This document shows, piece after piece, positions 3,253 through 19,444 of a stretch of DNA of 20,069 nucleotides. The translations under genes and the position numbers were made by a program. Source of the DNA: a virus; the IMG/VR virus record IMGVR_UViG_3300022707_001079, positions 1 to 20,069 of that record; one strand, 5' to 3'. The notes below the pieces were generated by a model, which worked only from the letters and a program-made list of their open reading frames with translations, made no database searches and was not told where the DNA came from. Position 1 is the stretch's first letter, and each line of letters starts with the position of its first letter.

Positions 3253-4366
3253 TCCTGAAGACGTGCGGAAGAATGCGGCGGAAGGTGGGGGTGGGGGCAG
3301 CACTTGGTTTAATCTACCTGATGGTGTGGAAGTGTGGACTCCTGATAAATCAGGGACATATTTAATTGACATACTTCCATATGAAGTCGCCGTTGATGAT
3401 CACCCAGATCGTGTAGAAAAAGGAGTGTTGTGGTTTAAGCGTCAATTTGCAGTCCATCATAATTTCGGTATTAAAGCGGTATCCGTTGTTTGTCCGCGAA
3501 GTATTGATAAACGGTGCCCAACTTGTGATGACATGGATGCTTTGAAAGCTGACGATTATGATAAGAATGAGGAACAAATCAAAGCCCTCAAGCCTCAAAA
3601 ATATGTGATGTATAATATCAAACATCCCGAAGAGGATGACAAAATAGCTATCTTTACAATGTCATATGGCAAATTTGCCAAGGGACTTGATGAAGAACTC
3701 AAAGAATCAGACGAAGATATTCTGTCTTTCTTTGATGTGACTGATGAAGGAAAAACCATTAAAGTTCGGTTTTCTGATGCAACATTCATGGGACGGGATT
3801 ATATCGAAGCGACTCGTTTTGATTTCAAAGATCGTGATGAAATGGATGAAGATGAAATTCTGGATAGTGTGGCCTGTCTGGATACTATTCTGAATGTCAT
3901 GCCATTTGATAAGTTCAAGGATGCTTATCTTCAGATTGACGCGAATGATGACGATGACGGGGATAAGGATAAAAAACCCGAAGACATCGAACCAGACGAC
4001 GATTCCGATTCAGAAGCTGAAGAAAAAGCAGCGGAAGCCAAAGCGGAGAAGAAAGCTAAAGCCGCTAAATCAAAGGCAAAGAAAGAGGCAAAAGAAAAAG
4101 CTGCTAAAGAAAAAGAAGGTGATGAAGACCCCGATGACGATGACGATGATGGGGATAGTAACGATGAAGATACACCAGAACCCGAACCGAAAGAGGACAA
4201 AAAGAAATCTAAAAAGTCCAATAATAAAGACGATGACGATGACGACGATACTCCAGAATGCCCAATGAAGGATGATGGTGGTGTGTTTGGAGAGACAGTG
4301 GACAAGTTCAAAGAATGCGATGATTGCCCACACTGGCAAGCCTGCGAAGAAGCGAGTGAGGACTAA
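3224..4366 (+). CDS. gp32-like single-stranded DNA binding protein
   Basis: ATG 3224 (MAKKKRKR) is preceded by GAAAGGA at 3208-3214; a longer frame from 3155 only translates upstream sequence. In the 380-residue product His78/His79, Cys90, Cys98 and Cys101 (CPTC) reproduce the HCCC zinc pattern of T4 gp32 (His64, Cys77, Cys87, Cys90) with similar spacing, inside an OB-fold-like core reaching about residue 240. The C-terminal third is low complexity: acidic Asp/Glu runs, an Ala/Lys/Glu-rich helix and more Asp runs, like the acidic tail by which gp32 binds partners. It ends with a second cysteine set (ECPM...FG...ECDDCPHWQAC). It would coat single-stranded DNA during replication and recombination, working with the recombinase that starts at its stop codon (TAATG overlap). 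Confidence 0.85.
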   Translation: MAKKKRKRVSPEDVRKNAAEGGGGGSTWFNLPDGVEVWTPDKSGTYLIDILPYEVAVDDHPDRVEKGVLWFKRQFAVHHNFGIKAVSVVCPRSIDKRCPTCDDMDALKADDYDKNEEQIKALKPQKYVMYNIKHPEEDDKIAIFTMSYGKFAKGLDEELKESDEDILSFFDVTDEGKTIKVRFSDATFMGRDYIEATRFDFKDRDEMDEDEILDSVACLDTILNVMPFDKFKDAYLQIDANDDDDGDKDKKPEDIEPDDDSDSEAEEKAAEAKAEKKAKAAKSKAKKEAKEKAAKEKEGDEDPDDDDDDGDSNDEDTPEPEPKEDKKKSKKSNNKDDDDDDDTPECPMKDDGGVFGETVDKFKECDDCPHWQACEEASED

Positions 4367-5478
4367 TGAGTAAGACAAGAAAAAGATCAGCGGCACAGGT
4401 GGAAGAAGTAGCAATGAAGGAACGGGAACCGGTGACTGGGAAACCCAGCCGCCGGAACCTGCTTTCTTCTGGGTCAACGTTGCTGAATCTAGCTTGTTCT
4501 GATAATGCATTTGGGGCATTCCTCAAGGGTAAATATTATTTATTCGTAGGCGCTTCCACAGCCGGTAAAACTTTCCTATCCATGACTTGTTTTGCTGAAG
4601 CATCGATCAATAAACAGTTCAAGGATTACCGGTTAATCTATGACAATGTGGAAGACGGAATGGAAATGGACGTGGAAGGTCTGTTTGGTTCTGGCGTAGC
4701 AAAGCGACTAGAACCGCCGTCAATGAAAGACGGGGAACCAGAACATTCATTTACCATCGAAGAATTTTACTACAATTTAGATGATGCCCTTAAAAAAGGA
4801 AAGCCGTTTATATATGTGCTGGATTCGATGGACGGACTTTCCAGTGAACAAGAAGGGGAGAAATTCGAGCAACACAAAAAAGCCTATGAAGAAGAAAAGA
4901 AAGCGCCTGGTAGTTATGGTGATGGTAAAGCTAAGAAGAATTCAGAGATGTTGCGGAAAACATTAAAAGGAATCAGGGATAGCGGTTCTATTCTTATCAT
5001 CGTATCGCAGACACGGGATAATCTGAAGCCGGGATTCCAACCGAAAACAAGGTCAGGGGGACATGCTCTGAGGTTCTATGCTACTGTTGAGATATGGGCA
5101 TCCATTGCCGAGACATTGAAAAAAACAGTAAAAGGAAAAGACCGGCAAATTGGTGTGCGCACTAAATTAAAAATAGAAAAGAACCGAATCACCGGAAAGA
5201 AAAGAGAAATTGAAATTGAGATATACCCCGACTACGGAATGGATGATATCGGATCTTGTATTGATTATTTGATAGATGAAAAATGGTGGGGGAAAGAGAA
5301 GCAGTCAATCGTGGCAGAGGAAATTAAGTTTACAGGAACCAGACCGAAGTTAATACAACACATCGAAGAAAAGGGACTTGAAAACGAAGTACGTTCTATC
5401 GTGGGTAAATGTTGGAAATCAATTGATGACGCTTGTTCATTGAACAGGAAGAAAAAGTATGACGTGGGTTCTGATTGA
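4366..5478 (+). CDS. RecA/UvsX-like recombinase
   Basis: The 370-residue protein has a RecA-type ATPase core: Walker A GASTAGKT (62-69), an acidic DNVED stretch (93-97), Walker B FIYVLD (148-153) and a strand ending SQTR with Gln215, in the place of the RecA glutamine that senses ATP and contacts DNA. A charged insert at about 163-195, rich in Glu and Lys, separates Walker B from that strand. The start overlaps the SSB stop as TAATG. With the SSB, the possible UvsY and the SbcCD-like genes it forms a T4-type recombination-dependent replication set. It would form filaments on single-stranded DNA and catalyse strand exchange. Length is close to the RecA and UvsX families. Confidence 0.85.
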   Translation: MSKTRKRSAAQVEEVAMKEREPVTGKPSRRNLLSSGSTLLNLACSDNAFGAFLKGKYYLFVGASTAGKTFLSMTCFAEASINKQFKDYRLIYDNVEDGMEMDVEGLFGSGVAKRLEPPSMKDGEPEHSFTIEEFYYNLDDALKKGKPFIYVLDSMDGLSSEQEGEKFEQHKKAYEEEKKAPGSYGDGKAKKNSEMLRKTLKGIRDSGSILIIVSQTRDNLKPGFQPKTRSGGHALRFYATVEIWASIAETLKKTVKGKDRQIGVRTKLKIEKNRITGKKREIEIEIYPDYGMDDIGSCIDYLIDEKWWGKEKQSIVAEEIKFTGTRPKLIQHIEEKGLENEVRSIVGKCWKSIDDACSLNRKKKYDVGSD

Positions 5479-6660: not shown

Positions 6661-6866
6661 AAGAGTACTCTGTAAAACTAAGAATAGAATTCGACAAAGT
6701 AGATGGAGTGCGGGTGTCCGTTATCGGTGCGGGGGATAGGGACTGGCTGAGTTTCCATATCAGTCCTAAGACATTGCATATGAACACAAGAGTTCTCACT
6801 ATTTGGAATCCCTTCATGAAGCGATTGAAATCAGAATTAAAACAAGAATACGCGGATAATAAATGA
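6657..6866 (+). CDS. Small hypothetical protein, 69 aa
   Basis: I choose ATG 6657 because it overlaps the previous stop as ATGA; an in-frame ATG at 6630 lies inside that gene and has no better ribosome site. The product begins MKEYSVKLRIEFDKVDGVRV and looks like a small beta-rich domain followed by a basic helix (NPFMKRLKSELKQEY). No family is recognised. The stop overlaps the cysC start (ATGA), so the APS kinase is probably translated by coupling to it. Confidence 0.6.
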   Translation: MKEYSVKLRIEFDKVDGVRVSVIGAGDRDWLSFHISPKTLHMNTRVLTIWNPFMKRLKSELKQEYADNK

Positions 6867-7435
6867 CTATTATACGGAAGAAAAGTCAGATGATAAGACA
6901 ACAACCGATCACTGTTTGGTTGACCGGCCTGAGTGGTTCGGGAAAATCGACCGTGGCTTATGCACTGGAACAAAAACTTATAGAAGCGGGTAGGCTTTGC
7001 TACGTACTGGACGGCGACGACATTCGACGCGGGTTGAGCGGTGATCTTGGCTTCACTGCAATTGACCGACAAGAAAACATTCGCCGCGTTGCCGAAGTCG
7101 CGCGGTTGTTTAATCGCGCTGGCATGATAATAATCACCGCGTTTATATCACCGTTTCGCGTGGATCGGGATTTAGCCCGAACGATTATCCATACCCAAGA
7201 ATCGACGTTTATGGAAGTGTTTGTCGATGCACCGTTGTCAGTGTGTGAGGCACGAGATCCGAAAGGGCTATACAAAAAAGCGCGGGCGGGTGAAATCGTT
7301 GATTTTACCGGCATATCATCGCCCTATGAAGTGCCACTTAATCCAGAAGTGCATCTGAACACGGATCGAGAGACCCCTGACATCTCAACTAAAATCATCA
7401 TAGAGGCACTACGCCATAAAAACTTTAAAGGATAA
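6863..7435 (+). CDS. cysC: Adenylylsulfate (APS) kinase
   Basis: This is a complete APS kinase of 190 residues. It phosphorylates APS at the 3' hydroxyl with ATP to give PAPS, the universal sulfate donor. Motifs in order: P-loop GLSGSGKST (22-30), DGDDIRRGL (50-58), DLGF (61-64), the ENIRRVAEVARLF helix (71-83), AFISPFR (93-99), whose Ser96 aligns with the phosphorylated serine of the bacterial enzyme, then GLYKKARAGEI and the DFTGISSPYEVP lid. ATG 6890, nine codons in, is an alternative start. A hand count of 6961-7140 gives about 52% G+C against about 42% in 6481-6600, suggesting acquisition from a bacterium. No ATP sulfurylase gene is seen, so APS would come from the host. The likely consumer is the sulfotransferase at 12838-13437. 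Confidence 0.95.
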   Translation: MTIIRKKSQMIRQQPITVWLTGLSGSGKSTVAYALEQKLIEAGRLCYVLDGDDIRRGLSGDLGFTAIDRQENIRRVAEVARLFNRAGMIIITAFISPFRVDRDLARTIIHTQESTFMEVFVDAPLSVCEARDPKGLYKKARAGEIVDFTGISSPYEVPLNPEVHLNTDRETPDISTKIIIEALRHKNFKG

Positions 7436-8616: not shown

Positions 8617-9648
8617 ATGCTGGAAAGTCTGACACTCAAAAACTTTCAAGTCCATAAGAATCGGACGATTGAATTAGACCCACAGACCACCACGATTATC
8701 GGTATTACGGATTCCGGGAAATCATCCATTACACGGGGACTTAAATGGGGTTCTCGAAATAAACCACTCGGAAGCGATTTTATCAATTGGGATGCTGAAG
8801 AAACTACAGTAGTAATCAAAGCAGAAGGGCGTGTGGTACGGCGTAGGAGAGGGAAGAAAAAAGGATCTGACAATACCTACGAACTGGACAAAGAAGAATA
8901 TAAAGCATTCGGTAGTGGGGAAGTACCTCCTGCGATACATGAAGTCTTGAATATCGGGGAGATCAATTTTCAGGGACAGCATGACAGCCCCTTCTGGTTT
9001 ACTAAGACCGCAGGGGAAGTATCCCGGGAACTGAATAGGATTGTCAATCTAACCAAGATAGACACCACCCTGAGTGCTTTAGCCAGCTTACTGCTGACTA
9101 CCCGGACAGAAGTCAAAGTGTCTTCAGAACGCTTGCAATCAGCCAAGGAAGAGCGTACTAGGCTGAAATATTCCCGGCAAATGGATAAGGATCTGAGGAT
9201 AGTAGAAGGTAAAGCAGAAAAACTGAGAGAATTGTCCCATAAACGCGCTCTACTAGCTTCCGTTCTGTCCAAGGTAACTGAAGCTCAAAAAGTAGTATAT
9301 CATTCAGCAGGGATTACAGAACGACTCCAGATAGTAGTTGAGAAGGGCGAAGCATGGCTTGCTGTACGAAAGAAGGCTAGAAATCTGGCATCCCTATTAG
9401 AATCTGCAAAAACGGCAAAAATTGCCGCTGAACAACCGGTGCCAGATATTACAGACCTTTTAGAATTGAATGAAAAAATTCTGAGAAAAAATCAATCGGT
9501 AGCTCAATTATCGGCGATAGTATTACAGGCAACTACCGCAAAGGAAAAAGTATGTCAAAAAGAGGAAAGACTGAAAGTGTTGGATCAGAAGTTCAAGAAA
9601 TTGATAAAAGATGGTTGTCCGCTCTGCGGTGGCCTGATTCCCCAGTAG
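8617..9648 (+). CDS. sbcC: SbcC/Rad50 ATPase N-terminal half, ending at zinc hook
   Basis: The 343-residue product begins like SbcC/Rad50/T4 gp46 (MLESLTLKNFQVHKNRTIEL), with Walker A GITDSGKSS (29-37) and a Q-loop region INFQGQHDSPFWF at about residues 113-126. A long coiled coil follows from about 150 to 330. It then stops nine residues after the zinc-hook motif CPLCGG (Cys334, Cys337). It has no signature motif or Walker B; these are in the gene at 10930-11514. The two proteins must therefore come together to make one ATP site. It works with the SbcD-like nuclease, whose gene starts inside its 3' end. The complex would process DNA ends for recombination. AAAGGAAAA precedes ATG 8617. Confidence 0.85.
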   Translation: MLESLTLKNFQVHKNRTIELDPQTTTIIGITDSGKSSITRGLKWGSRNKPLGSDFINWDAEETTVVIKAEGRVVRRRRGKKKGSDNTYELDKEEYKAFGSGEVPPAIHEVLNIGEINFQGQHDSPFWFTKTAGEVSRELNRIVNLTKIDTTLSALASLLLTTRTEVKVSSERLQSAKEERTRLKYSRQMDKDLRIVEGKAEKLRELSHKRALLASVLSKVTEAQKVVYHSAGITERLQIVVEKGEAWLAVRKKARNLASLLESAKTAKIAAEQPVPDITDLLELNEKILRKNQSVAQLSAIVLQATTAKEKVCQKEERLKVLDQKFKKLIKDGCPLCGGLIPQ

Positions 9649-10544
9649 TAGCTGTTCTCTGTTCTGATATCCACCTCAGTCTGAAGCCACCTCGCGCGCG
9701 CATGGGGGAACCTGACTGGTTCGGTGCTATGGCGCGTTCATTGAATCAGTTGAAGGAGGTTTCTGAGTATTTCAAAATCCCTATTTTTTGCGCTGGGGAC
9801 ATCTTCGATAAATGGAATTCGCCACCTGAACTGATCAACTTTGCCATTGATCATTTACCAAAAATGTGGGCAATTCCGGGACAGCATGATTTACCATTAC
9901 ATAACTATTCAGATATTAAAAAATCAGCTTATTGGACTTTGGTAGAAACAGGAATAATTACACCATTAGAACCCAGACAAACTTTAGATTGTGGGGATGC
10001 TTGCTTCCAGGCTTTCCCGTGGGGGTTCCCTATCCAAGATATCGGAACAATACCAGGGGCTATCAACGTGGGTATTGTCCATCAATACATCTGGATAGAT
10101 GACCACGGCTACCCAGAAGCACCTACAGAAAGAAAAGCCACCAAAGCCCGTGCGGATTTTAAGGGGTTTGATGTTCTGGTATTCGGGGATAATCACAAAG
10201 GATTCCTAACCAAGAAAGGGGATACCACGATCTTTAACTGCGGTGGATTTATGCGCCGTGCTTCCGATGAAATAGACTACCGGCCACAAATCGGACTGCT
10301 TCATGCTTCCGGAGAAGTGTCCGTTGTTCCTCTTGATATATCAGAGGACAAAATTGAATATGTTGCTCCTGTAAAAGTAGCGGACGGGGCTGATATGGAT
10401 TTGCAGGAATTCTTGGATGAATTAACCGGTCTGGAAGAGACTGAACTGGATTTTGAAGAAGCCATGCGCAGGGCAATACGGAAAAAGAAGCCGGGTCAAA
10501 ACGTCCGGAAAATTCTATTGAAAGCAATGGAGACTGTAAAATGA
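9552..10544 (+). CDS. sbcD: SbcD/Mre11-like nuclease (T4 gp47-like)
   Basis: This 330-residue calcineurin-type phosphoesterase is the nuclease partner of SbcC. Motifs: Asp39-Ile-His41 (SDIHLS), GDIFD (82-86), PGQHD (109-113, where most family members have GNHD), His177 in IVHQ, and GDNH (212-215). ATG 9552 has AAGGA at 9541-9545, six bases upstream, and gives about 30 residues before the first motif. This makes a 97-base overlap with the SbcC-like gene, so the same DNA encodes the zinc hook in one frame. TTG 9615 is a weaker alternative start. The C-terminal acidic region (about 275-305) may contact the ATPase. It ends as ATGA with the next small gene. Confidence 0.88.
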   Translation: MSKRGKTESVGSEVQEIDKRWLSALRWPDSPVVAVLCSDIHLSLKPPRARMGEPDWFGAMARSLNQLKEVSEYFKIPIFCAGDIFDKWNSPPELINFAIDHLPKMWAIPGQHDLPLHNYSDIKKSAYWTLVETGIITPLEPRQTLDCGDACFQAFPWGFPIQDIGTIPGAINVGIVHQYIWIDDHGYPEAPTERKATKARADFKGFDVLVFGDNHKGFLTKKGDTTIFNCGGFMRRASDEIDYRPQIGLLHASGEVSVVPLDISEDKIEYVAPVKVADGADMDLQEFLDELTGLEETELDFEEAMRRAIRKKKPGQNVRKILLKAMETVK

Positions 10545-10699
10545 GTGCGCCAAAATGTAAATGTGGCACTGGATTCGGTCTTTACTGTTTTGAAGGTTCT
10601 TATATTTGTCCAATATGTATGGGTGTGTTGATCAAGAGACTTCGGAAAAAAATAAAGAAACTAACTCTAAAAAAACCACGGAAAGGAAACCATGAGTAG
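10541..10699 (+). CDS. Mini zinc-ribbon protein, 52 aa
   Basis: ATG 10541 overlaps the SbcD-like stop (ATGA), and the frame ends at TAG 10697-10699, overlapping the next start by eight bases. The product begins MSAPKCKCGTGFGLYCFEGS and continues YICPICMG, so Cys6, Cys8, Cys23 and Cys26 (with Cys16) can bind zinc. The second half is strongly basic (RLRKKIKKLTLKKPRKGN), as in nucleic-acid binders. It lies between the nuclease and ATPase genes of the SbcCD-like complex; a role in that complex is inference from position. The family is not recognised. Confidence 0.6.
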   Translation: MSAPKCKCGTGFGLYCFEGSYICPICMGVLIKRLRKKIKKLTLKKPRKGNHE

Positions 10700-10940
10700 A
10701 GTAGAAGAATTATCAGAACTAAAAGACAAAGTAGAAAAACTCCGAAGTCAGACAGATGAAGCCAAAGGATCATTGACTACCTGCATGGATCAATTGAAAG
10801 ATAAATTCGAGTGCGATACCGTAGAAGATGCAGAGAAATTACTGGAAGAATGGGAAGCTTTAGAAACTGAATTAGAGGAAGATTATCAAGAAGCCTTTGA
10901 CAAAATCAGGGATGATTGGAGTGAACAACTTGAAGCATGA
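10692..10940 (+). CDS. Small coiled-coil protein in the SbcCD-like cluster
   Basis: The 82-residue acidic product is nearly all heptad-like helix (VEELSELKDKVEKL, then EDAEKLLEEWEALETELEED), broken at about residues 38-42 by FECDT, so it may form a helical hairpin. GGAAAGGAAACC ahead of ATG 10692 supplies the ribosome site. It overlaps the ATPase C-terminal gene by 11 bases. Since the two ATPase halves carry a long coil and a short coil respectively, this protein could supply part of the missing return coil of the Rad50 arm. That is a hypothesis from position and heptads only. Confidence 0.7.
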   Translation: MSRVEELSELKDKVEKLRSQTDEAKGSLTTCMDQLKDKFECDTVEDAEKLLEEWEALETELEEDYQEAFDKIRDDWSEQLEA

Positions 10941-11514
10941 TATCACATCCATTCGTAAACTTGTGAACAAACGCCTATCTGAATTCGATGTGGCGCGTAT
11001 GAGATACCGGGAAGAATCAGAAGCCCTGGAGATTGCAGAGCAGAAGGTGGAAGATGTTCTGGAAGCGCAAGGAATGGCGCAACAGGTAGCACAGACGATA
11101 CAGCAACATGCTAATAATCAAATTGCCGGGGTTGTTACCAGGTGCCTACAGGCGGTATTTGATGAGCCGTATATATTCCATATTGATTTTGAACGCAAGC
11201 GAGGACGGACAGAAGCGCGGTTATATTTTGAGAAAGATGGACATGAACTAGATCCTATGTCCGCTTCCGGTGGTGGGTGTGTGGATATTGCTTCTTTTGC
11301 TTTGCGCCTGTCCTGCTTGGCTCTTTCCCGTCCATCGTTGCGGCGATTGATTGTTATGGATGAGCCTTTCAAATTTATCTCTGTAGAGTATCGGGATAAT
11401 GTGCGGGTTCTATTGCAGACGTTGGCAAAGGAAATGAAATTCCAATTTATTTTGGTCACTCACGACGACGAATTTCATATTGGGAAAGTGATTAGACTTA
11501 TTAAGGGGGAATAA
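10930..11514 (+). CDS. sbcC: SbcC/Rad50 ATPase C-terminal half (TTG start)
   Basis: The frame opens at 10897, but TTG 10930 fits best, with TGGAG at 10917-10921 eight bases upstream. The 194-residue product has a short coil (about 1-55), a lobe with FERKRGRTEARLYFEKDG, the ABC/SMC signature SASGGG (111-116), Walker B LIVMDEP (140-146), the D-loop after it and the H-loop His178 (LVTHDDE). It has no Walker A and no zinc hook, so it complements the product of 8617-9648. The SGGG, MDEP and THDD motifs are all intact, so this is a working half and not a decayed fragment. Confidence 0.82.
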   Translation: MKHDITSIRKLVNKRLSEFDVARMRYREESEALEIAEQKVEDVLEAQGMAQQVAQTIQQHANNQIAGVVTRCLQAVFDEPYIFHIDFERKRGRTEARLYFEKDGHELDPMSASGGGCVDIASFALRLSCLALSRPSLRRLIVMDEPFKFISVEYRDNVRVLLQTLAKEMKFQFILVTHDDEFHIGKVIRLIKGE

Positions 11515-12199: not shown

Positions 12200-12841
12200 C
12201 TATACCCAGATCGGATTCCCTTCAGCAGTATATTGCTGTCCTACGAATCCATCAAAATCAGGATGATCTGGAAATGGTCGGTTGGTTCCTCCCCACTTCA
12301 CTGGTACTGATGTGTGCCGCAATAAATCTTTGTAAACATAAGGCAATACGTATTTCTGCAATATTCTCATATCTCCCACGCGCGGTAACTTACTATAGAA
12401 CTTAGATCGAAAGGGACAATCCCCCTTTAGAACACCGCCCCGAATCCCCCACATCCCCCCAAAAAGGGGCAACGATGCATGGTGCGGATGATCGTGCATA
12501 CAATGAGCAGATTTACCAGATTCTATCCAAGCTTCCACCGCAGCCGCTTCACGGACGTTTAGACGAGAATCTGAGTCTCGAAAGATGGTATAGGTGTGCT
12601 TATCATTCCAAGCTGAGGCAAATCGCCAGAGCATCCCCGAATGTCCCCTGGAACGTCCCATAGTTTGTACCACGCATTTTAATTCCTTCAGTTGTTTTAT
12701 TATGAGATCTGGTATTTTGTCCTCACAAAAGACAAGCATCCGCCAGCCTGGATAAATGCTTTCCATAAGTTTAGCATTATCAACAGCCCCTTGGAGATAC
12801 ATCGCACCAGATCCATATAATGAGACACTGACAACTTTCAT
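12200..12841 (-). CDS. GT-A-like glycosyltransferase, 213 aa
   Basis: The product begins MKVVSVSLYGSGAMYLQGAV, has an Asp89-Ser-Asp91 motif (FRDSDSR) in the place of the metal-binding DxD of GT-A fold sugar transferases, and then HDHPHH and GGMWGIRGG, as seen in a family of putative phage and bacterial sugar transferases. Sugar donor and acceptor are unknown. It is the last gene of the minus-strand operon; its start overlaps the sulfotransferase stop as ATGA, so the two are translated together. The hairpin terminator follows six bases after the stop. Confidence 0.65.
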   Translation of the reverse strand: MKVVSVSLYGSGAMYLQGAVDNAKLMESIYPGWRMLVFCEDKIPDLIIKQLKELKCVVQTMGRSRGHSGMLWRFASAWNDKHTYTIFRDSDSRLNVREAAAVEAWIESGKSAHCMHDHPHHASLPLFGGMWGIRGGVLKGDCPFRSKFYSKLPRVGDMRILQKYVLPYVYKDLLRHTSVPVKWGGTNRPFPDHPDFDGFVGQQYTAEGNPIWV

Positions 12842-13437
12842 ACTTCATACCCCCATTCCGCTGCAATAGGTTTACAAAAATCTTCTATCTGGTCACGTTG
12901 CCAATCAGGTAGTAAGCGCCACATACCAGGATGAATAACGCCGATATGCGCCCCGTGAATTTTCTCTTCGTCAAATGTCCGAAAAGATTTTTGTTTATCC
13001 GCCCGTTCTTTATTTTCCTTAACAGAATATTTTGCACTAATCTCATCTTGTGTTTCACGTGAAACATTTGTCCAGAGTCGTTCCCGAATCATTTTAAAAA
13101 TCACATCATAGTCATTATAAAATTCTTCATACCGTAACAATTTTCCACGATATCCACGGACAAAATGGAGCGCGTCATAGTGTTCTTTCATGACAACCAT
13201 TTCTGCTTCTAATCCTTTCGTACCACCATCTGCTTCACTTCCACGAGAAAGGCGAACACGATACCGGGAAGCAGCTACATCGCACGGGTGACGAATAGAC
13301 GACACTACAAAAGAACCATCAGGTTCCCATGCCGCTGGATGAGTTTGGGGGATTTCCATTTCCGGAAATACCGTTTTCAAGATCTGCCAGATTAATGTAG
13401 ACCCACTACGGGGTATCCCGCAACATACGAGTTTCAT
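12838..13437 (-). CDS. PAPS-dependent sulfotransferase
   Basis: The 199-residue protein carries both PAPS-binding signatures. The 5'-phosphosulfate loop is GIPRSGSTLIW (residues 7-17, equivalent to PKSGTTW), and the 3'-phosphate motif is IRHPCDVAASRY, with Arg49 and Ser57 eight residues apart, the same spacing as Arg130 and Ser138 of oestrogen sulfotransferase. It transfers sulfate from PAPS to a hydroxyl or amine, probably on a sugar given its neighbours. It overlaps the exostosin-like gene by 32 bases and the last sugar transferase by ATGA. PAPS could come from the phage APS kinase at 6863-7435. At 199 residues it is shorter than most family members, but both signatures are intact. A perfect parS sequence lies inside the gene. 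Confidence 0.85.
   Translation of the reverse strand: MKLVCCGIPRSGSTLIWQILKTVFPEMEIPQTHPAAWEPDGSFVVSSIRHPCDVAASRYRVRLSRGSEADGGTKGLEAEMVVMKEHYDALHFVRGYRGKLLRYEEFYNDYDVIFKMIRERLWTNVSRETQDEISAKYSVKENKERADKQKSFRTFDEEKIHGAHIGVIHPGMWRLLPDWQRDQIEDFCKPIAAEWGYEV
13051..13066. promoter_or_regulatory. parS: Perfect parS-like centromere site
   Basis: The bases TGTTTCACGTGAAACA form a perfect 16-base palindrome and match the bacterial chromosomal parS consensus TGTTNCACGTGAAACA at every position. ParB proteins of most bacteria bind this site to nucleate spreading and chromosome segregation. Here it lies in the sulfotransferase coding sequence (residues NVSRET on the minus strand). No parA or parB gene is seen in the window. 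Chance occurrence in 20 kb is of the order of one in tens of thousands. Function in the phage is unproven. Confidence 0.75.
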
Positions 13438-14227
13438 GTTTAATCCATGCCTTCCAGTAGTTCATATCCATTTTTTTCATGGAATCGTGTGTGAAGCGTT
13501 CCTGTAATGCGGGGAGCTCCCCTATCAATCGGTCCTCTGTTACTTCATCCCAATGGTCTACTCGGAGACACGGCATATCATCCAGAATATCCGTGGCCCT
13601 GGATCGTAACACAATCGGGACAGAACCCAGCGCCATGGCTTCCCAATGCCGATGACAATCCAATCCAGCACCAGGTGGGGACAGAACGTAATCGTGCGTT
13701 TGGACGCCCGTGTAGAAATCCTCAATAGCCACGTAGCAATCAGGCATACCACCTTCAACAGTTACCCAATCGAATCCCCCAAATTGTTCATACATGCCTT
13801 CTCTGGGATTTGTTCGGTGCCGTACAATGTTTCGGTAGAAATTCATATACATTAGGTTCCGGCGTGCCGGTCGTGGTTCTCTTCTCCGATTCATACAAAG
13901 ATCCTGATGCCCTCGTTTGAAAGCAAAGCCAATCGGAATAGGAATTACGCGTGGATGATCCACCATCACATTCGTAGAGAACCAGAATTTGATATTTGAT
14001 GGCATGGATCTCACCATTTTTTGCGTTAAGGAAGCATCAGAATACGTAGTAATTAAGATACAGAGACCTATTTTCTTTGTCATTCTGAATTGATGATGAG
14101 TCAAATGGGTGATTCCATAGATAACAGGACCGTCCCCAAGCACACTGCTATCAAAAAGAACACCCGCAAGATCCGCGAACTTTTGGTTATCTACCGGATC
14201 GAATTCCTTAAATATCGAGTTTGACAT
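13406..14227 (-). CDS. Exostosin-like glycosyltransferase
   Basis: The 273-residue product has the exostosin/GT47-type signature SPPGAGLDCHRHWEA followed by MALGSVPIVLRS (residues 183-209), the donor-binding end of a GT-B fold. The first part contains GITHLTHHQF and a strand WFSTNVMVDHPRVIPIPIG, also typical of this group. It would transfer a sugar from a nucleotide donor to a glycan. The ribosome site AGGGA precedes ATG 14227, giving a 20-base overlap with the FkbM gene; the end overlaps the sulfotransferase. It is shorter than many GT47 proteins, so part of the first domain may be reduced. Confidence 0.75.
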   Translation of the reverse strand: MSNSIFKEFDPVDNQKFADLAGVLFDSSVLGDGPVIYGITHLTHHQFRMTKKIGLCILITTYSDASLTQKMVRSMPSNIKFWFSTNVMVDHPRVIPIPIGFAFKRGHQDLCMNRRREPRPARRNLMYMNFYRNIVRHRTNPREGMYEQFGGFDWVTVEGGMPDCYVAIEDFYTGVQTHDYVLSPPGAGLDCHRHWEAMALGSVPIVLRSRATDILDDMPCLRVDHWDEVTEDRLIGELPALQERFTHDSMKKMDMNYWKAWIKHETRMLRDTP

Positions 14228-14807
14228 ATAATGTGTTCCCTGCTGTTCTACAAAATTCGCGATAGTTTTCAGGTAACGCGAACCCCCCGCCCTCCATACA
14301 AATCAAAGTAGGTTGCCACCGATTCCAGTCAATGGATTGGAGTACCTGATAATCCATACCCTCACAGTCGATGGAAAGGAAATCAATTTCAGGCACTTTG
14401 TAAGCATCGAATAATTCGACAAGCGTCAAAACATGCACATCAATTTCCGCTTCATAGGTGGCGTCAAAATCCTTTTCGAGTCGATCTTTCCATTCTGACA
14501 AAAGCGTTGATCCCTGTTTATGTCCTTCACCACCAATATGAAATTTCTGTGTGCCGCATTCAGAACCACAAGCACAATTCACAGTACGGACGTGCATATT
14601 ATCAGCGTATCTTTCTTCCAGTGCTTTGTATTGACTGGGTTCTGGTTCCACTAATAGACCTTGCCAACCCCCTTGCTGTAATAATGCGTGCGTGTTAGAA
14701 TTATCGAGACCATTAGCAGCGCCGATATCCACTACAAATCCATAATGCTGTCCCTGGAAATACTTTTCAAGGATTGCATCTTCACCATATTGCGCGCCAA
14801 TAGTCAT
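14208..14807 (-). CDS. FkbM-family methyltransferase
   Basis: The 199-residue protein fits the FkbM family of SAM-dependent O-methyltransferases: SAM-binding VVDIGAANGLDNSNT (25-39), the acidic strand LLVEPEP (51-57), and the late motif IDFLSIDCEGMDYQVLQSID with ICMEGGG. FkbM enzymes methylate hydroxyls of sugars and polyketides, and such genes are common in glycan clusters. The ribosome site GGGG lies about eight bases before ATG 14807. It is flanked by sugar transferases on both sides, so a sugar hydroxyl on the phage-directed glycan is the likely target. Confidence 0.88.
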   Translation of the reverse strand: MTIGAQYGEDAILEKYFQGQHYGFVVDIGAANGLDNSNTHALLQQGGWQGLLVEPEPSQYKALEERYADNMHVRTVNCACGSECGTQKFHIGGEGHKQGSTLLSEWKDRLEKDFDATYEAEIDVHVLTLVELFDAYKVPEIDFLSIDCEGMDYQVLQSIDWNRWQPTLICMEGGGFALPENYREFCRTAGNTLYVKLDI

Positions 14808-14818
14808 ATCCGCAACCC

Positions 14819-15571
14819 CTATCCGTAAAGTTCATCCACTAAAGCACTCAAATTATTGTGACGATCCCACTGATGAATTACAATTGGAACTTCACCGGCC
14901 TTATTAATAATCCAACTTCCATCAATCACAACTGTCTCTCGTGGGATATACCCTACAGTATAAATATCATTATTTTCATTGTTATGGATGGTTCCTTCAA
15001 ATTCAGCTTCTCTTAAAATATAATTATGGCAAGATTGATCTTGTGGTTCCTTTGTCCTAGGTTGTAATCGTCGGAGTTCTTTTGTCAATCGATGCATATG
15101 CAAAGCCACAGCCGTTCGATCCCCACAGAAAGAACCCACACAGGAAATGGGGAAATTCTTCAAACGACCCAATCCCACTTCCCCATAACCAAGTCTTACC
15201 CATAAAGAATTATATGGGCATGTCCCAATTGTCATACTGTCATCTTCCAGAAAAGCATGGAATCCTTCTGCTGGTAATTCATTTGGATTCTTTTGAAAGA
15301 CTACATCTCTAGTATCAACACAGAGAATGCCGGAAGATCCTATATCTCGAATCATATCCCACATCCATAGGAATCGTTCAGCATGTGGCAGTGTTGTCAC
15401 CTTCGGACAAGCAAGCACTTCCACGCCCCACTTCTCGGCCTCTTTCGCTGCCCCTTTATTGACGAATAAAACGATTCTTCCGTGATACCCAGTCATTCTG
15501 AGACTCTTTAGAAATGGACGGATCTGTTCAGCCGTGTACCCAATAGCCGCACCTAATACACAATCAATCAT
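14819..15571 (-). CDS. GT-A-like glycosyltransferase, 250 aa
   Basis: I choose ATG 15571 (MIDCVLGAAIGYTAEQIRPF), with a GGGGG ribosome site four to five bases upstream; a start six codons earlier is possible. GILCVDTRDVVFQ (about residues 81-93; Asp86 and Asp89) matches the metal-binding region of a group of bacterial and phage GT-A transferases. Then follow a GSFCGDR segment and a C-terminal HQWDRH, probably near the catalytic site. Donor and acceptor cannot be read. It overlaps the upstream methyltransferase by eight bases. Confidence 0.7.
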   Translation of the reverse strand: MIDCVLGAAIGYTAEQIRPFLKSLRMTGYHGRIVLFVNKGAAKEAEKWGVEVLACPKVTTLPHAERFLWMWDMIRDIGSSGILCVDTRDVVFQKNPNELPAEGFHAFLEDDSMTIGTCPYNSLWVRLGYGEVGLGRLKNFPISCVGSFCGDRTAVALHMHRLTKELRRLQPRTKEPQDQSCHNYILREAEFEGTIHNNENNDIYTVGYIPRETVVIDGSWIINKAGEVPIVIHQWDRHNNLSALVDELYG

Positions 15572-16250
15572 GGTTCCCCCACCCCTCACCTGTGATGTTT
15601 GTCAATGTTGTAGAAAACCCCCATAAGGATTGTGCCGCTTTATCCACTACCGGTTGCAATTCTTCCAATTCAATTTCATCTTTCGTGAATAAATCAGTCC
15701 ATGGAACCGCGTGTATCTTATTCACTTTTCCTACAGGAGCAAATCGGTATCGGTGCCAACCATCCATTGCATCGTCGATTAGTTCAAAATTATAAAATTC
15801 TGGACTGTTCTTTTCGAGATCATGAAGCATGACCATACGGGCATATTTTGATAGATAGATCATTGCAGGAACACGCGCACATGTGTAAGTGTCTACAAAA
15901 AGGAAATCAAAGGGGTTCATATCTAAGTTTGCGTACCAATCATCCACATCTTTTAAATCCTGTGGACGCATATCTGGACGCCGTGTGCCATTATGAGCAT
16001 TATTCAACGCATGAACTAACCAATGATGATCTGGATGATTTGCTATTGTCTTGATTACCTTATTCGCCCAATTGGCATCATGTTCTATCGTCAATATCCA
16101 CGCAGCAAATTGTTCAATAATAGGGGTTGAATATGCACCACACCCACATTCAACAACAAGTTCTGGACGCAGAATCTCCATCACAGCTTGTAGAAATGGC
16201 ATGTGACTTCCCCATGTCTGTCTGACATGTTCTTCCGTATCTAAACTCAT
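15564..16250 (-). CDS. Class I SAM methyltransferase-like protein
   Basis: The 228-residue product has a class I SAM-binding motif, VVECGCGAYSTPII (32-45), an acidic strand-end motif LTIEHDANW (53-61), and DFLFVDTYTCAR in the place of motif IV. The ARMVMLHDLEKNSPEFYNFE region resembles the metal-ligand part of sugar O-methyltransferase or cephalosporin hydroxylase-like proteins. It is likely to methylate a sugar or other surface component. It overlaps its neighbours at both ends (ATGA with the gene at 16247, eight bases with the next). The exact family is uncertain. Confidence 0.65.
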   Translation of the reverse strand: MSLDTEEHVRQTWGSHMPFLQAVMEILRPELVVECGCGAYSTPIIEQFAAWILTIEHDANWANKVIKTIANHPDHHWLVHALNNAHNGTRRPDMRPQDLKDVDDWYANLDMNPFDFLFVDTYTCARVPAMIYLSKYARMVMLHDLEKNSPEFYNFELIDDAMDGWHRYRFAPVGKVNKIHAVPWTDLFTKDEIELEELQPVVDKAAQSLWGFSTTLTNITGEGWGNHD

Positions 16251-16903
16251 GATAGTGGGTTCCTCTCATGTCCTGGAAATTTATTTGACTGGCGTAAATT
16301 GAACATCCGTTTATCCTCTTTGTGATTAGCCAAAGCGGTATCCAGGTGGGATGGTCTGCCATCTTTCCCTCGTTGCCAATGATCGTGGTACTGGCTGATG
16401 TTCTTCCGTTGCTGGAAAGCATCCATCAGAATAGCCGCCTCTTGAATTTCTTGATCGGAAAAGTAATGAAAATACCCTTCCCAGTACGGTCCGTTGCCAC
16501 TGTAGGATTCATCGATGAAGGCTCTACCCACCCACGGACAGGGACAACACAGGTCAATACTGGCGAATATGTCACCTGTAGGCTGCATAACACCGAATGT
16601 ATCTGGGAATCGTTCCTTGAATTTATCCAGAATAACGTCTGGAGTCTCTTCTAAGGGTGGTCTAATGTCATCACCGATACAAACGACCACTTCCCCCGGA
16701 ACTTCACGACACAGCCTGTTCATGGCGTTAGGATAGCCTTCCCAACGTTCCCCGATGATGACTTTATCAGGTTCTGGGGATATCTCATTAATATGATCGA
16801 ATAATACAGCAGTTTTATACCCTGCTCCTTTCCAGAGTTTGATGCATTCTCCAGCTAGTTTTGGATTGGCGCTTGGCCATACAGCCCATATTTCAGGTGG
16901 CAT
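16247..16903 (-). CDS. Putative glycosyltransferase, 218 aa
   Basis: ATG 16903 (MPPEIWAVWPSANPKLAGEC) is preceded by AAGGAAGG and overlaps the previous gene by 11 bases; the open frame continues 14 codons further but without a better site. VVVCIGDDIRPP (72-83, Asp78-Asp79) sits where GT-A transferases bind metal and donor. CPWVGRAFIDESYSG and YFHYFSDQEIQEAA resemble the acceptor-side region of family 2-like transferases. The call is by fold-level pattern only. Confidence 0.6.
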   Translation of the reverse strand: MPPEIWAVWPSANPKLAGECIKLWKGAGYKTAVLFDHINEISPEPDKVIIGERWEGYPNAMNRLCREVPGEVVVCIGDDIRPPLEETPDVILDKFKERFPDTFGVMQPTGDIFASIDLCCPCPWVGRAFIDESYSGNGPYWEGYFHYFSDQEIQEAAILMDAFQQRKNISQYHDHWQRGKDGRPSHLDTALANHKEDKRMFNLRQSNKFPGHERNPLS

Positions 16904-17504
16904 ATCCTTCCTTCCCGTCAATGACGTTCTTAAATCGCTTTGCACCTCTTGTGTGTAATATAACTGGATTCAAACCTTTAGCGTGTTTCGCCGTAAGTTC
17001 CGTGATGAAAGTATATTCTTGTGGAAGTTCTACGAAATGACAAGCCTTAATATCCGTAATAGCGAGAGCCAAAGTTCTCTGATCCCAAGCTGGTCGCCTA
17101 TCTGGTAATTTGTCTGGATACTGAATATGCAAAGCAATCCATCTATCCACTACCTGCATACAAACTGGCGTATTGGCAAAGTATACAGTGCCGGATAAGA
17201 GCTCCTGGTTCCGCGCGTAATGCACCGCCGCAATATCGCAATCAACATCATCCAGAATGACAGGAGGGTGTAGCATTATCGCGTCTACGTCGATGTACAA
17301 AATAGGATTACCCACATGCTTTTCCAGCATGGATTTTATGACGATTGCTTTATACTGGGTATTCTTCTGCCATGACCCTAGATTCTCTACTGGAAGATAG
17401 TCATGCTCATACCCATGTTCTTCCAACGACAATTTCAGTGTTTGGAATTCATGTTCATACGGTGTGTCTTTTGTATAAAATCCTACTACGAGTGGCCGAC
17501 CCAT
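16893..17504 (-). CDS. DxD nucleotide-sugar transferase, 203 aa
   Basis: ATG 17504 has AAAGGGA at 17511-17518 and is preferred to ATG 17528, eight codons earlier. The product matches a family of nucleotide-diphospho-sugar transferases frequent in phages: FYTKDTPYEHEFQTLKLSL at the N-terminus, NLGSWQKNTQYKA, ILYIDVDA with the DxD Asp72-Val-Asp74, ELLSGTVYFANT, and a late DQRTLALA. It is the first glycan gene after the propeller-protein gene, 16 bases downstream of it, which suggests co-transcription with the virion genes. Confidence 0.75.
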   Translation of the reverse strand: MGRPLVVGFYTKDTPYEHEFQTLKLSLEEHGYEHDYLPVENLGSWQKNTQYKAIVIKSMLEKHVGNPILYIDVDAIMLHPPVILDDVDCDIAAVHYARNQELLSGTVYFANTPVCMQVVDRWIALHIQYPDKLPDRRPAWDQRTLALAITDIKACHFVELPQEYTFITELTAKHAKGLNPVILHTRGAKRFKNVIDGKEGYAT

Positions 17505-17520
17505 TTTAATTCCCTTTCTG

Positions 17521-18771
17521 TTAAACAACTATCGGCGGTGTAATATCGTTCCAATTTCTAACTAAACCATTTGGTTCATCATCCCATTCTTTTCCCCATA
17601 CGGAACCATTCCACACAGCTGCATTGTTTAACGTCACGCCGCCCATTTCGGAGAAGTCACCGCCAATATATAATTTTCCATTTGCAGATAAGCACGTCCA
17701 GATATCAGTACCAGCAGTTAAGCCACCGCCAATCGCCTCAAAGGTTGATCCGTCCCAACTCGCGATATGCAGGAAGTCTGCGCCATCAATTTTGGTGAAG
17801 TTGCCAACGATAATCAACTTTCCCTCATGAACACATAGACCGCGAACCCGCGTACTAGGGGAACCAGCAGAAGTCACCCCAATTGCAGAAAACGCCGAAC
17901 CATCCCAAAGGGCGAGCCTCGCTAGTGAGGTGTCCCCGTCAACGCTTGTGAATCGACCACCAATTGCAAGGTCTGTGCCAAACTGAGATAGGGCCGCTAC
18001 GTTACCTACTATTTGCCCTGGCACGGACCAACTCCCTCCACCGGCCTTTCGGATCAAAATACCCTCAGTGTTGCCGCTTACGTGTGTAAATTTTAACGCG
18101 CCACCAATTACAACGGTATCAGAACTACCGTCATTCCATGGTCGAATAACATCGCAAGACAACGTTGCCGACCCATCCCATGAGACACCGCCGGTATTCT
18201 GCCAATCGGTTCCGTCCCACTGCTGTATCGGGTCATGCGATGCAGCAACTGCTCTGTTTGTGCCAATAAATGATTCGCCGCCCGCGTTTCTGATCGAAGC
18301 GATGATATTAGTGCCAACCGCGCCTGGTCGATCCCCATGAGGTTCCCAGGAATCAAGATCAACATCAAAAAATCCCACCCGTCCAGTTACCGCACCGCCA
18401 ACTTCCACTAATAGCCCATCAATAAGCTGGACACCACGTACAGAACCAGTGGAAGCGTCAACCGCTGAAAGGTCACCAAGTAGGCGGACAACATTAGATC
18501 CAAGATTAGTAAAGTCTCCACTCATTACCAAATTCCCGACAAGTTCCTCGGTCTTCATTAAAACATGTTCGCCGTCACTTGTGAGCATTGCGATACTCAA
18601 ATCACCATCCGTAGTAGCTGCGACCACTTTCATAGCAACAATTTCACCATCAGAAGTTATACAAGGGATAATAAAATCATCTGCTGACGTGGCCGGGGTT
18701 ACAGGAAAAGCAACATACTCCCCATCAGAACCACGTACAGCGATAAAAAAATCACCTTCCGCAATAGCCAT
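17521..18771 (-). CDS. Beta-propeller virion-associated protein with N-terminal repeats
   Basis: ATG 18771 (MAIAEGDFFIAVRGSDGEYV) begins one base after the previous stop; the open frame extends further only by shadowing that gene. Of 416 residues, 5-79 are three 25-residue repeats with SDGE at 15, 40 and 65. The rest shows about seven copies of a blade pattern such as LAIGGRFTSVDGD...LALWDGSAFSAIG, LIIVGNFTKIDGA...ASWDGSTFEAIG and LYIGGDFSEMGG...AVWNGSVW. This resembles Kelch or DUF5122-type propellers. Next to probable structural genes it is likely a tail or fibre-associated adhesin, and it may be the carrier of the glycan. There is no signal peptide. Confidence 0.65.
   Translation of the reverse strand: MAIAEGDFFIAVRGSDGEYVAFPVTPATSADDFIIPCITSDGEIVAMKVVAATTDGDLSIAMLTSDGEHVLMKTEELVGNLVMSGDFTNLGSNVVRLLGDLSAVDASTGSVRGVQLIDGLLVEVGGAVTGRVGFFDVDLDSWEPHGDRPGAVGTNIIASIRNAGGESFIGTNRAVAASHDPIQQWDGTDWQNTGGVSWDGSATLSCDVIRPWNDGSSDTVVIGGALKFTHVSGNTEGILIRKAGGGSWSVPGQIVGNVAALSQFGTDLAIGGRFTSVDGDTSLARLALWDGSAFSAIGVTSAGSPSTRVRGLCVHEGKLIIVGNFTKIDGADFLHIASWDGSTFEAIGGGLTAGTDIWTCLSANGKLYIGGDFSEMGGVTLNNAAVWNGSVWGKEWDDEPNGLVRNWNDITPPIVV
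18535..18759 (-). repeat. Three tandem 25-residue repeats in the propeller protein
   Basis: Residues 5-29, 30-54 and 55-79 repeat with an exact 25-residue period: GDFFIAVRGSDGEYVAFPV, DDFIIPCITSDGEIVAMKV and GDLSIAMLTSDGEHVLMKT. The pattern GDxxIAxxxSDGExVxMKV is kept, while the DNA has diverged, so the repeat is maintained at protein level. It looks like a small beta-hairpin stack that could anchor the protein to the virion. Confidence 0.8.
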
Positions 18772-18772
18772 A

Positions 18773-19444
18773 TTAAACAATCGCCTTAAACTCAAATTCA
18801 GGATCGGTGGATTCATCTTCACCAGTAGAGTCAACAACCCTACCCAAAATCGTTCCATCAGATTCCGCATCAGCAGTCGCCTTATACAATGTAGGAGCTT
18901 CATGAGCAGGAAACTCAATCATCCCCCACGCCAAACCAGTTCCATCGCTCTCATCATTAGAAGCCCAAATAATAAGCGCCGGACCAGATGGAGAACTTTC
19001 TAAATTAGCAGTGGCATCATCAGGAGATTCGCCATCTACAAGAGTAGCATATTTATGATCAGGATCGATAAAATCAATCAAGACAATTGCACGTCCGAAT
19101 ATTGTAGCTAATCCTGTTTCGTTTACATCCAATCCTTGATGAAGAACACAGAATTTATATTCATCTAAACCCTTAACCGGTTCAATTCCTTCAAATGTAG
19201 GACGTGAAAATCGAAAAATCAATTCATCATCATCTGGTTCAAGAATGGAATTCCCCATAGCTAAAATGCCATTGGCATTTACAAAATTTGCTGTAATATT
19301 CTTGATAAAAATAGTAGATGGACCGGCATTACCAGCATTGATCCCCGTTAATTGTTGGGGAGGATTGTCTATCAAACCAGACAATTTATTTATATATGTG
19401 TCCGCAAACTGAATATCATCGCCGGGGAATACCGGTTCTGTCAT
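18773..19444 (-). CDS. Putative virion structural protein, 223 aa
   Basis: AAGGG lies eight bases before ATG 19444. The acidic product (MTEPVFPGDDIQFADTYINK) reads as beta-rich: STIFIKNITANFVNANGILA, then ELIFRFSRPTF, a middle IDFIDPDHKYATLVDGESP and an acidic end. There is no enzymatic motif. Its composition, position between another likely structural gene and the propeller protein, and tight spacing suggest a tail, neck or fibre component. I do not recognise the family. Confidence 0.55.
   Translation of the reverse strand: MTEPVFPGDDIQFADTYINKLSGLIDNPPQQLTGINAGNAGPSTIFIKNITANFVNANGILAMGNSILEPDDDELIFRFSRPTFEGIEPVKGLDEYKFCVLHQGLDVNETGLATIFGRAIVLIDFIDPDHKYATLVDGESPDDATANLESSPSGPALIIWASNDESDGTGLAWGMIEFPAHEAPTLYKATADAESDGTILGRVVDSTGEDESTDPEFEFKAIV

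Follow-up and report, generated by a model that had tools for sequence, protein, structure and literature searches.

The DNA-break-repair enzyme Rad50 is, to our knowledge, one long protein almost everywhere. The window analyzed here, that is, the whole of a 20,069-base viral contig from IMG/VR, carries two separate genes that resemble the two ends of this protein, and it raises the question of whether a Rad50 that is made in two pieces could still be a working enzyme. An earlier note made from the sequence of the window had proposed that it could. The comparisons described below indicate that the locus very probably encodes a working Mre11-Rad50 enzyme of the SbcCD type, in which Rad50 is produced as two polypeptides, N and C, that assemble each ABC head together.

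The first gene, rad50-N (8617-9648, plus strand), encodes a protein of 343 amino acids that matches PHROG 16465 (E-value 3e-22) and consists of lobe I of the ABC head, a long arm helix and a C-terminal CxxC motif. The Walker A sequence GITDSGKS was located at residues 29-36 (8701-8724, plus strand), with G29, G34 and K35 invariant in 75 relatives, and the Q-loop region is NFQGQHD at residues 117-123. Profile searches matched the protein to Rad50 (PDB 3aux, E-value 9e-16) and to Pfam AAA_23, and its AF2 model (pLDDT 87), when compared with solved folds, matched the N-terminal chain of P. furiosus Rad50 (1f2u, E-value 1e-6). These results agree with the earlier assignment of Walker A, Q-loop, rising coil and hook to one gene. 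The modeled arm has a long helix at residues 145-272, interrupted once at 183, and a second helix at 279-330 that leads to the hook. Between them, about 58 residues before the hook, is a break at 273-278 (9433-9450, plus strand), which coincides with a hot spot for Gly and Pro seen among 37 relatives at positions -60 to -57 relative to the hook. The zinc-hook motif itself, CPLC (residues 334-337; 9616-9627, plus strand), is located 6 residues before the stop, and the protein ends in ..DGCPLCGGLIPQ, followed by the tandem stops TAG TAG.

The second gene, rad50-C (10930-11514, plus strand; PHROG 15167, E-value 8e-26), encodes a short coil followed by the signature, Walker B, D-loop and H-loop. 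Its likely start is the TTG at 10930, which has GGAG upstream and lies in a frame that is open from the TTG at 10897. The placement of the signature, Walker B and H-loop in this second gene was confirmed by the motifs and by a profile match to Rad50 C-terminal chains (3qkr_B, E-value 1e-11). Among 78 relatives, the signature region SASGGG (11260-11277, plus strand) has G127 conserved in 100% and G125-G126 in 93-94%, the Walker B Asp-Glu of VMDEP (11359-11364, plus strand; VMDEPF with the D-loop) has D155 and E156 conserved in 100%, and the H-loop His of VTH (VTHDD; 11461-11463, plus strand) is conserved in 92%. Chance does not explain the window motifs, which have been conserved in sets of 64 N and 54 C sequences with less than 55% pairwise identity. 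The signature has the form (S/A/R)GGG..D throughout the split clade and not LSGGE/Q, which is a minor correction to the earlier reading.

An SbcD gene, a small zinc ribbon and a coiled-coil protein had been described between the two halves, and ORFs for all three are present. The mre11/sbcD nuclease gene (9552-10544, plus strand, starting at the ATG at 9552 or the TTG at 9615; PF00149, E-value 1.6e-6) overlaps with its 5' end the hook-coding end of rad50-N. The coiled-coil protein of 82 amino acids, referred to here as K (10692-10940, plus strand), has profile matches at nearly every locus; its AF2 model (pLDDT 96) shows two equal helices (3-39 and 44-81) joined by a turn, and comparison of this model with solved folds gave no match. 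The zinc-ribbon-like ORF of 52 amino acids (10541-10699, plus strand) had no match in any related locus; it was ruled out as a core subunit for this lack of conservation and is regarded as lineage-specific.

Family and profile matches place the split rad50 in a recombination region with a clamp loader, a UvsX/RecA-like recombinase (4366-5478, plus strand; PF00154, E-value 2e-12; PHROG 97, E-value 4e-32), a 5'-3' exonuclease and a RusA/PDDEXK resolvase. An APS (adenylylsulphate) kinase gene (6863-7435, plus strand; PF01583, E-value 1e-67) is found within the same region. A block of opposite-strand genes at 12200-19444 (minus strand) includes a sulfotransferase-like gene (12838-13437, weak match) and an FkbM methyltransferase gene (14208-14807); this block possibly has a role in glycan or sulfate modification, and its modification genes may be linked to the APS kinase. 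A comparison with defense systems gave matches to generic AAA proteins only (AriA, mad3 and LmuB).

Searches of IMG/VR confirmed 168 relatives of C, of which 80 were kept, and 14 relatives of N; when the C protein of the window served as the sole query for viral sequences, no relatives were confirmed. About 180 related loci were tabulated, with 169 ORFs carrying the N head and 195 carrying the C half. N and C were joined in none of these ORFs except for three derived coil-less Mre11-Rad50 fusions described below, and none carried both lobes in a single chain by way of coil, hook and coil. N, K and C were separate ORFs at every well-covered locus, an Mre11/SbcD partner gene was nearby in nearly all loci, and the gene order of the window recurs in other phages, since N-Mre11-K-C was found in 65 of 76 distinct viral loci. 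The median overlap of N and Mre11 at the viral loci is 19 nt, which suggests coupled translation. The break immediately after the hook, noticed originally in the window, is likewise shared, with a CxxC near the stop codon (usually 4-10 residues from it) in 73 of 75 distinct viral N proteins; the two that lack it are those of locus L080 and phage Magritte.

Three annotated phages matched either half. In Bacillus phage vB_BboS-125, N ends with CPLC and 9 further residues, an AP2-domain gene lies between N and K, and C is present; SbcC and ATPase are absent from the main text of its genome paper (PMC6375668). An unannotated Mre11-like ORF was also observed downstream of its C half (L001, ~9239-10222; NC_048735.1, ~22421-23404). 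Microcystis phage Mvi-JY20 has N (CSQC plus 14 residues), SbcD, K and C in the same order as the window. In Microbacterium phage Magritte (L003/L004), about 93 kb of the linear record separates N (gp155) from C (gp2), and no K was seen adjoining either one.

The matches in a genome scan were for the most part in Clostridia, and a strong C half was present as its own ORF in about 61 genomes of a 399-genome phylum sample. Loci that were read whole in Fervidicola, Tissierella, Caloramator and a Thermosediminibacteraceae bacterium have the order recA - mre11 - N - K - C - rny, with an N of ~480 amino acids (CPxC ~20 from the end), a K of 80-86 and a C of ~220. Within 8-kb flanks, rny was found at 47 genome loci and recA at 32. 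K lies between N and C at nearly all genome loci, including those missed by the K profile. In one Eubacterium MAG contig (L104, 7914-8789) the order is reversed, with C directly followed by N. In Acetivibrio-type genomes, C stands alone between folD and rny, and an mre11-N-K operon is located near rimO and pgsA, these names being read from the protein sequences rather than from annotation. Because C is encoded at a separate site, joining during translation is impossible in these genomes, and the halves must meet as proteins. C without a nearby N was found in 12 genomes; N was present elsewhere in 11 of them, and G417 had no strong N match. Taken together, the sequences indicate that the same split is found again in numerous unrelated phages as well as in many Clostridia.

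The conventional Rad50 arm requires two strands of equal length, and the suggestion had been made that the 82-residue K could replace part of the descending coil, most of which is missing. The same trans-assembled enzyme would then have an ordinary two-stranded arm with the hook at its apex, and K would be the middle part of the descending strand, made as a separate piece. In the window, the N arm of ~185 residues is indeed nearly matched by K (82) plus the C coil (~70-77), and K occurs in nearly every well-covered locus, usually before C. Across the family, however, the N arms range from 141 to 438 residues and are quantized (~144, 185, 235, 250, 297 and 438), growing in steps of ~47 residues while K (~84) and the C coil (~77) remain constant, and no positive correlation of K length with N arm length was observed. 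Since the strand lengths are unmatched across the family, it is unlikely that K is no more than the absent descending strand. Its model of two equal helices and a turn also argues against this role, as does its position beside N, not C, when the two are separated. We consider this arrangement of K doubtful, and because it is a variant of the preferred explanation, its probability is not to be added to that of the latter. K is a conserved member of the set, but the replacement of the coil by K, as suggested earlier, was not established.

The ~47-residue step corresponds to a 47-residue tandem repeat in the Clostridia arm (autocorrelation z of 32 at lag 47 and 28 at lag 94), and weaker lags of 44-47 were found in phage N arms. 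The Rad50-N of Desulfotomaculum copahuensis (L119), with 710 amino acids, has an arm that aligns in 47-residue rows with TG....EG at the start of each. In the enzyme of two polypeptides preferred here, K is a regular accessory of the split system. Its retention beside N and mre11 when C is elsewhere suggests that its partner is N or Mre11, and for this reason K most likely packs on the arm or the hook end of N.

A second alternative is that N and C do not form one ATPase together and instead belong to complexes of their own, N acting, for example, as a tether and C in regulation, so that their linkage would be operonic only. The Acetivibrio-type genomes, in which C is apart from mre11-N-K, and the distance between N and C in Magritte would fit such an arrangement. 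The motifs do not, because Walker A is confined to N and C is the only half with the signature, Walker B and H-loop; neither protein alone can therefore be an ABC ATPase. Both halves are, moreover, retained even when they are unlinked, and we consider separate complexes improbable. That the split is an artefact or decay of a single sbcC, through sequencing error, frameshift, intron or pseudogene remnants, is scarcely credible: although most of the descending coil is lost at the break and N and C together are short relative to SbcC, the two halves are separated by other genes and start independently, tandem stops close the reading frame of N, and neither a frameshift nor an intron connects N with C. 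The motifs, moreover, have been kept in more than 100 loci (representatives less than 55% identical), chromosomes included.

The distribution of ordinary SbcC was compared with that of the split form, using as a marker the full model TIGR00618 with an E-value below 1e-30. SbcC was found in 2 of 61 split genomes and in 19 of 40 others (Fisher p ~1e-7, a value that serves as a guide only, since related genomes are not independent samples and genome completeness is unreported). In the two exceptions, G111 and G398, the split sets lie among phage-like neighbors (L204 and L196). N ORFs of the split genomes gave only weak N-terminal matches to TIGR00618 (E-values of ~1e-3 to 1e-7), and no strong match to this model was found among the split proteins. 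PF13558 (SbcC_Walker_B) was dropped as a marker; the strong matches examined (L180-L184) adjoin JetD-like ORFs and are therefore probably Wadjet JetC, so the apparent SbcC count that they gave in split genomes was discarded. Automatic SbcC calls made from PF13558 in Clostridia may be wrong.

As the split system and SbcCD are nearly mutually exclusive, they likely do the same job, and the split version appears to replace the usual enzyme in many Clostridia. A more specific proposal, to which we give an even chance, is that it is the main or only Mre11-Rad50 in a large group of Clostridia, with an arm of ~47-residue repeats formed by N only, a free C-terminal hook, and K as a dedicated third subunit. 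The proposal of a working split enzyme is favored by its conservation in multiple lineages, by the retention of unlinked halves and by this near exclusion of SbcC.

In a head-domain tree with four fused outgroups, all split sequences fall on one side of a 100/99 branch, and archaeal Rad50, nanoarchaeal Rad50, SbcC and T4 gp46 on the other. Among the split sequences, the window belongs to a main phage clade (99/97), and the Bacillus phage groups with the Clostridia in another clade (99/99). The bootstrap was unconverged, and the long branches of T4 gp46, SbcC and L002 could distort the root of this tree, for which one ancient fission that gave rise to the split form appears to be the best explanation. 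Three Clostridia genomes encode a single chain of 684-700 amino acids consisting of Mre11, lobe I and lobe II without coil or hook (L190, 4264-6318, plus strand; L191, 5152-7254, minus strand; L192, 5083-7170, minus strand). The position of these fusions within the Clostridia clade suggests that they arose later by renewed fusion and are not ancestral. Relatives with one fused gene in the same place had been named as evidence that would count against a split enzyme; no full-length fused Rad50 was found there, and the three fusions lack coil and hook and include Mre11.

By analogy with the Rad50 family, N (head lobe I, arm and terminal hook) and C (short coil and lobe II) would pair into an ABC ATPase head, and two such heads would dimerize on ATP. 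Mre11 would be the nuclease bound to N/C, with ATP binding driving the processing of DNA ends. Solved structures in which the Rad50 head consists of two separate chains (1f2t, 1f2u and 1ii8) make a two-chain head physically reasonable. Two N chains would be joined through zinc at their C-terminal CxxC motifs; the last helix of N may fold back, or two N chains may zip in parallel to share the zinc. The ordinary Rad50 hook is a stable dimerization module that can be replaced by an SMC hinge (PMC6969161), and a module of this kind would fit a hook at the end of a chain.

No description of a natural split Rad50/SbcC was found in searches of one library of open papers. Models of Rad50/SMC-like machines assume one chain that reaches the hook or hinge and then returns, with head movements transmitted along a continuous two-stranded arm. 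An enzyme naturally cut at the hook makes this assumption testable, as halves, hook and arm could be swapped independently. If the split enzyme works as proposed, continuity of the chain through the hook would be dispensable for Mre11-Rad50 function in nature. The split form would also account for the many Clostridia that score as lacking SbcCD, and, as a naturally bipartite ATPase, it may be usable for engineering conditional control.

The split system can be compared with several known ones. PHROG 16465 (exonuclease) and PHROG 15167 (ATPase), as in vB_BboS-125, are annotated as unrelated single genes; here they correspond to the paired N and C halves, which provides a likely function for two phage families that were annotated but unconnected. 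Bacterial SbcCD is similar in combining an ATPase with an adjacent Mre11/SbcD nuclease, but its SbcC is a single chain of ~1000 amino acids. The gp46/gp47 of phage T4 likewise form an Mre11-Rad50 pair, and T4 also has recombination of the UvsX type; however, gp46 is one chain of 560 amino acids (L233) and falls outside the split clade. Archaeal Rad50 (P. furiosus and M. jannaschii) gave the best profile and fold matches and shares the head lobes, the motifs and the CxxC hook. In its single chain the ascending and descending coils match and the signature is of the SGGE type, whereas the split form has two chains plus K, a terminal hook and the GGG..D signature.
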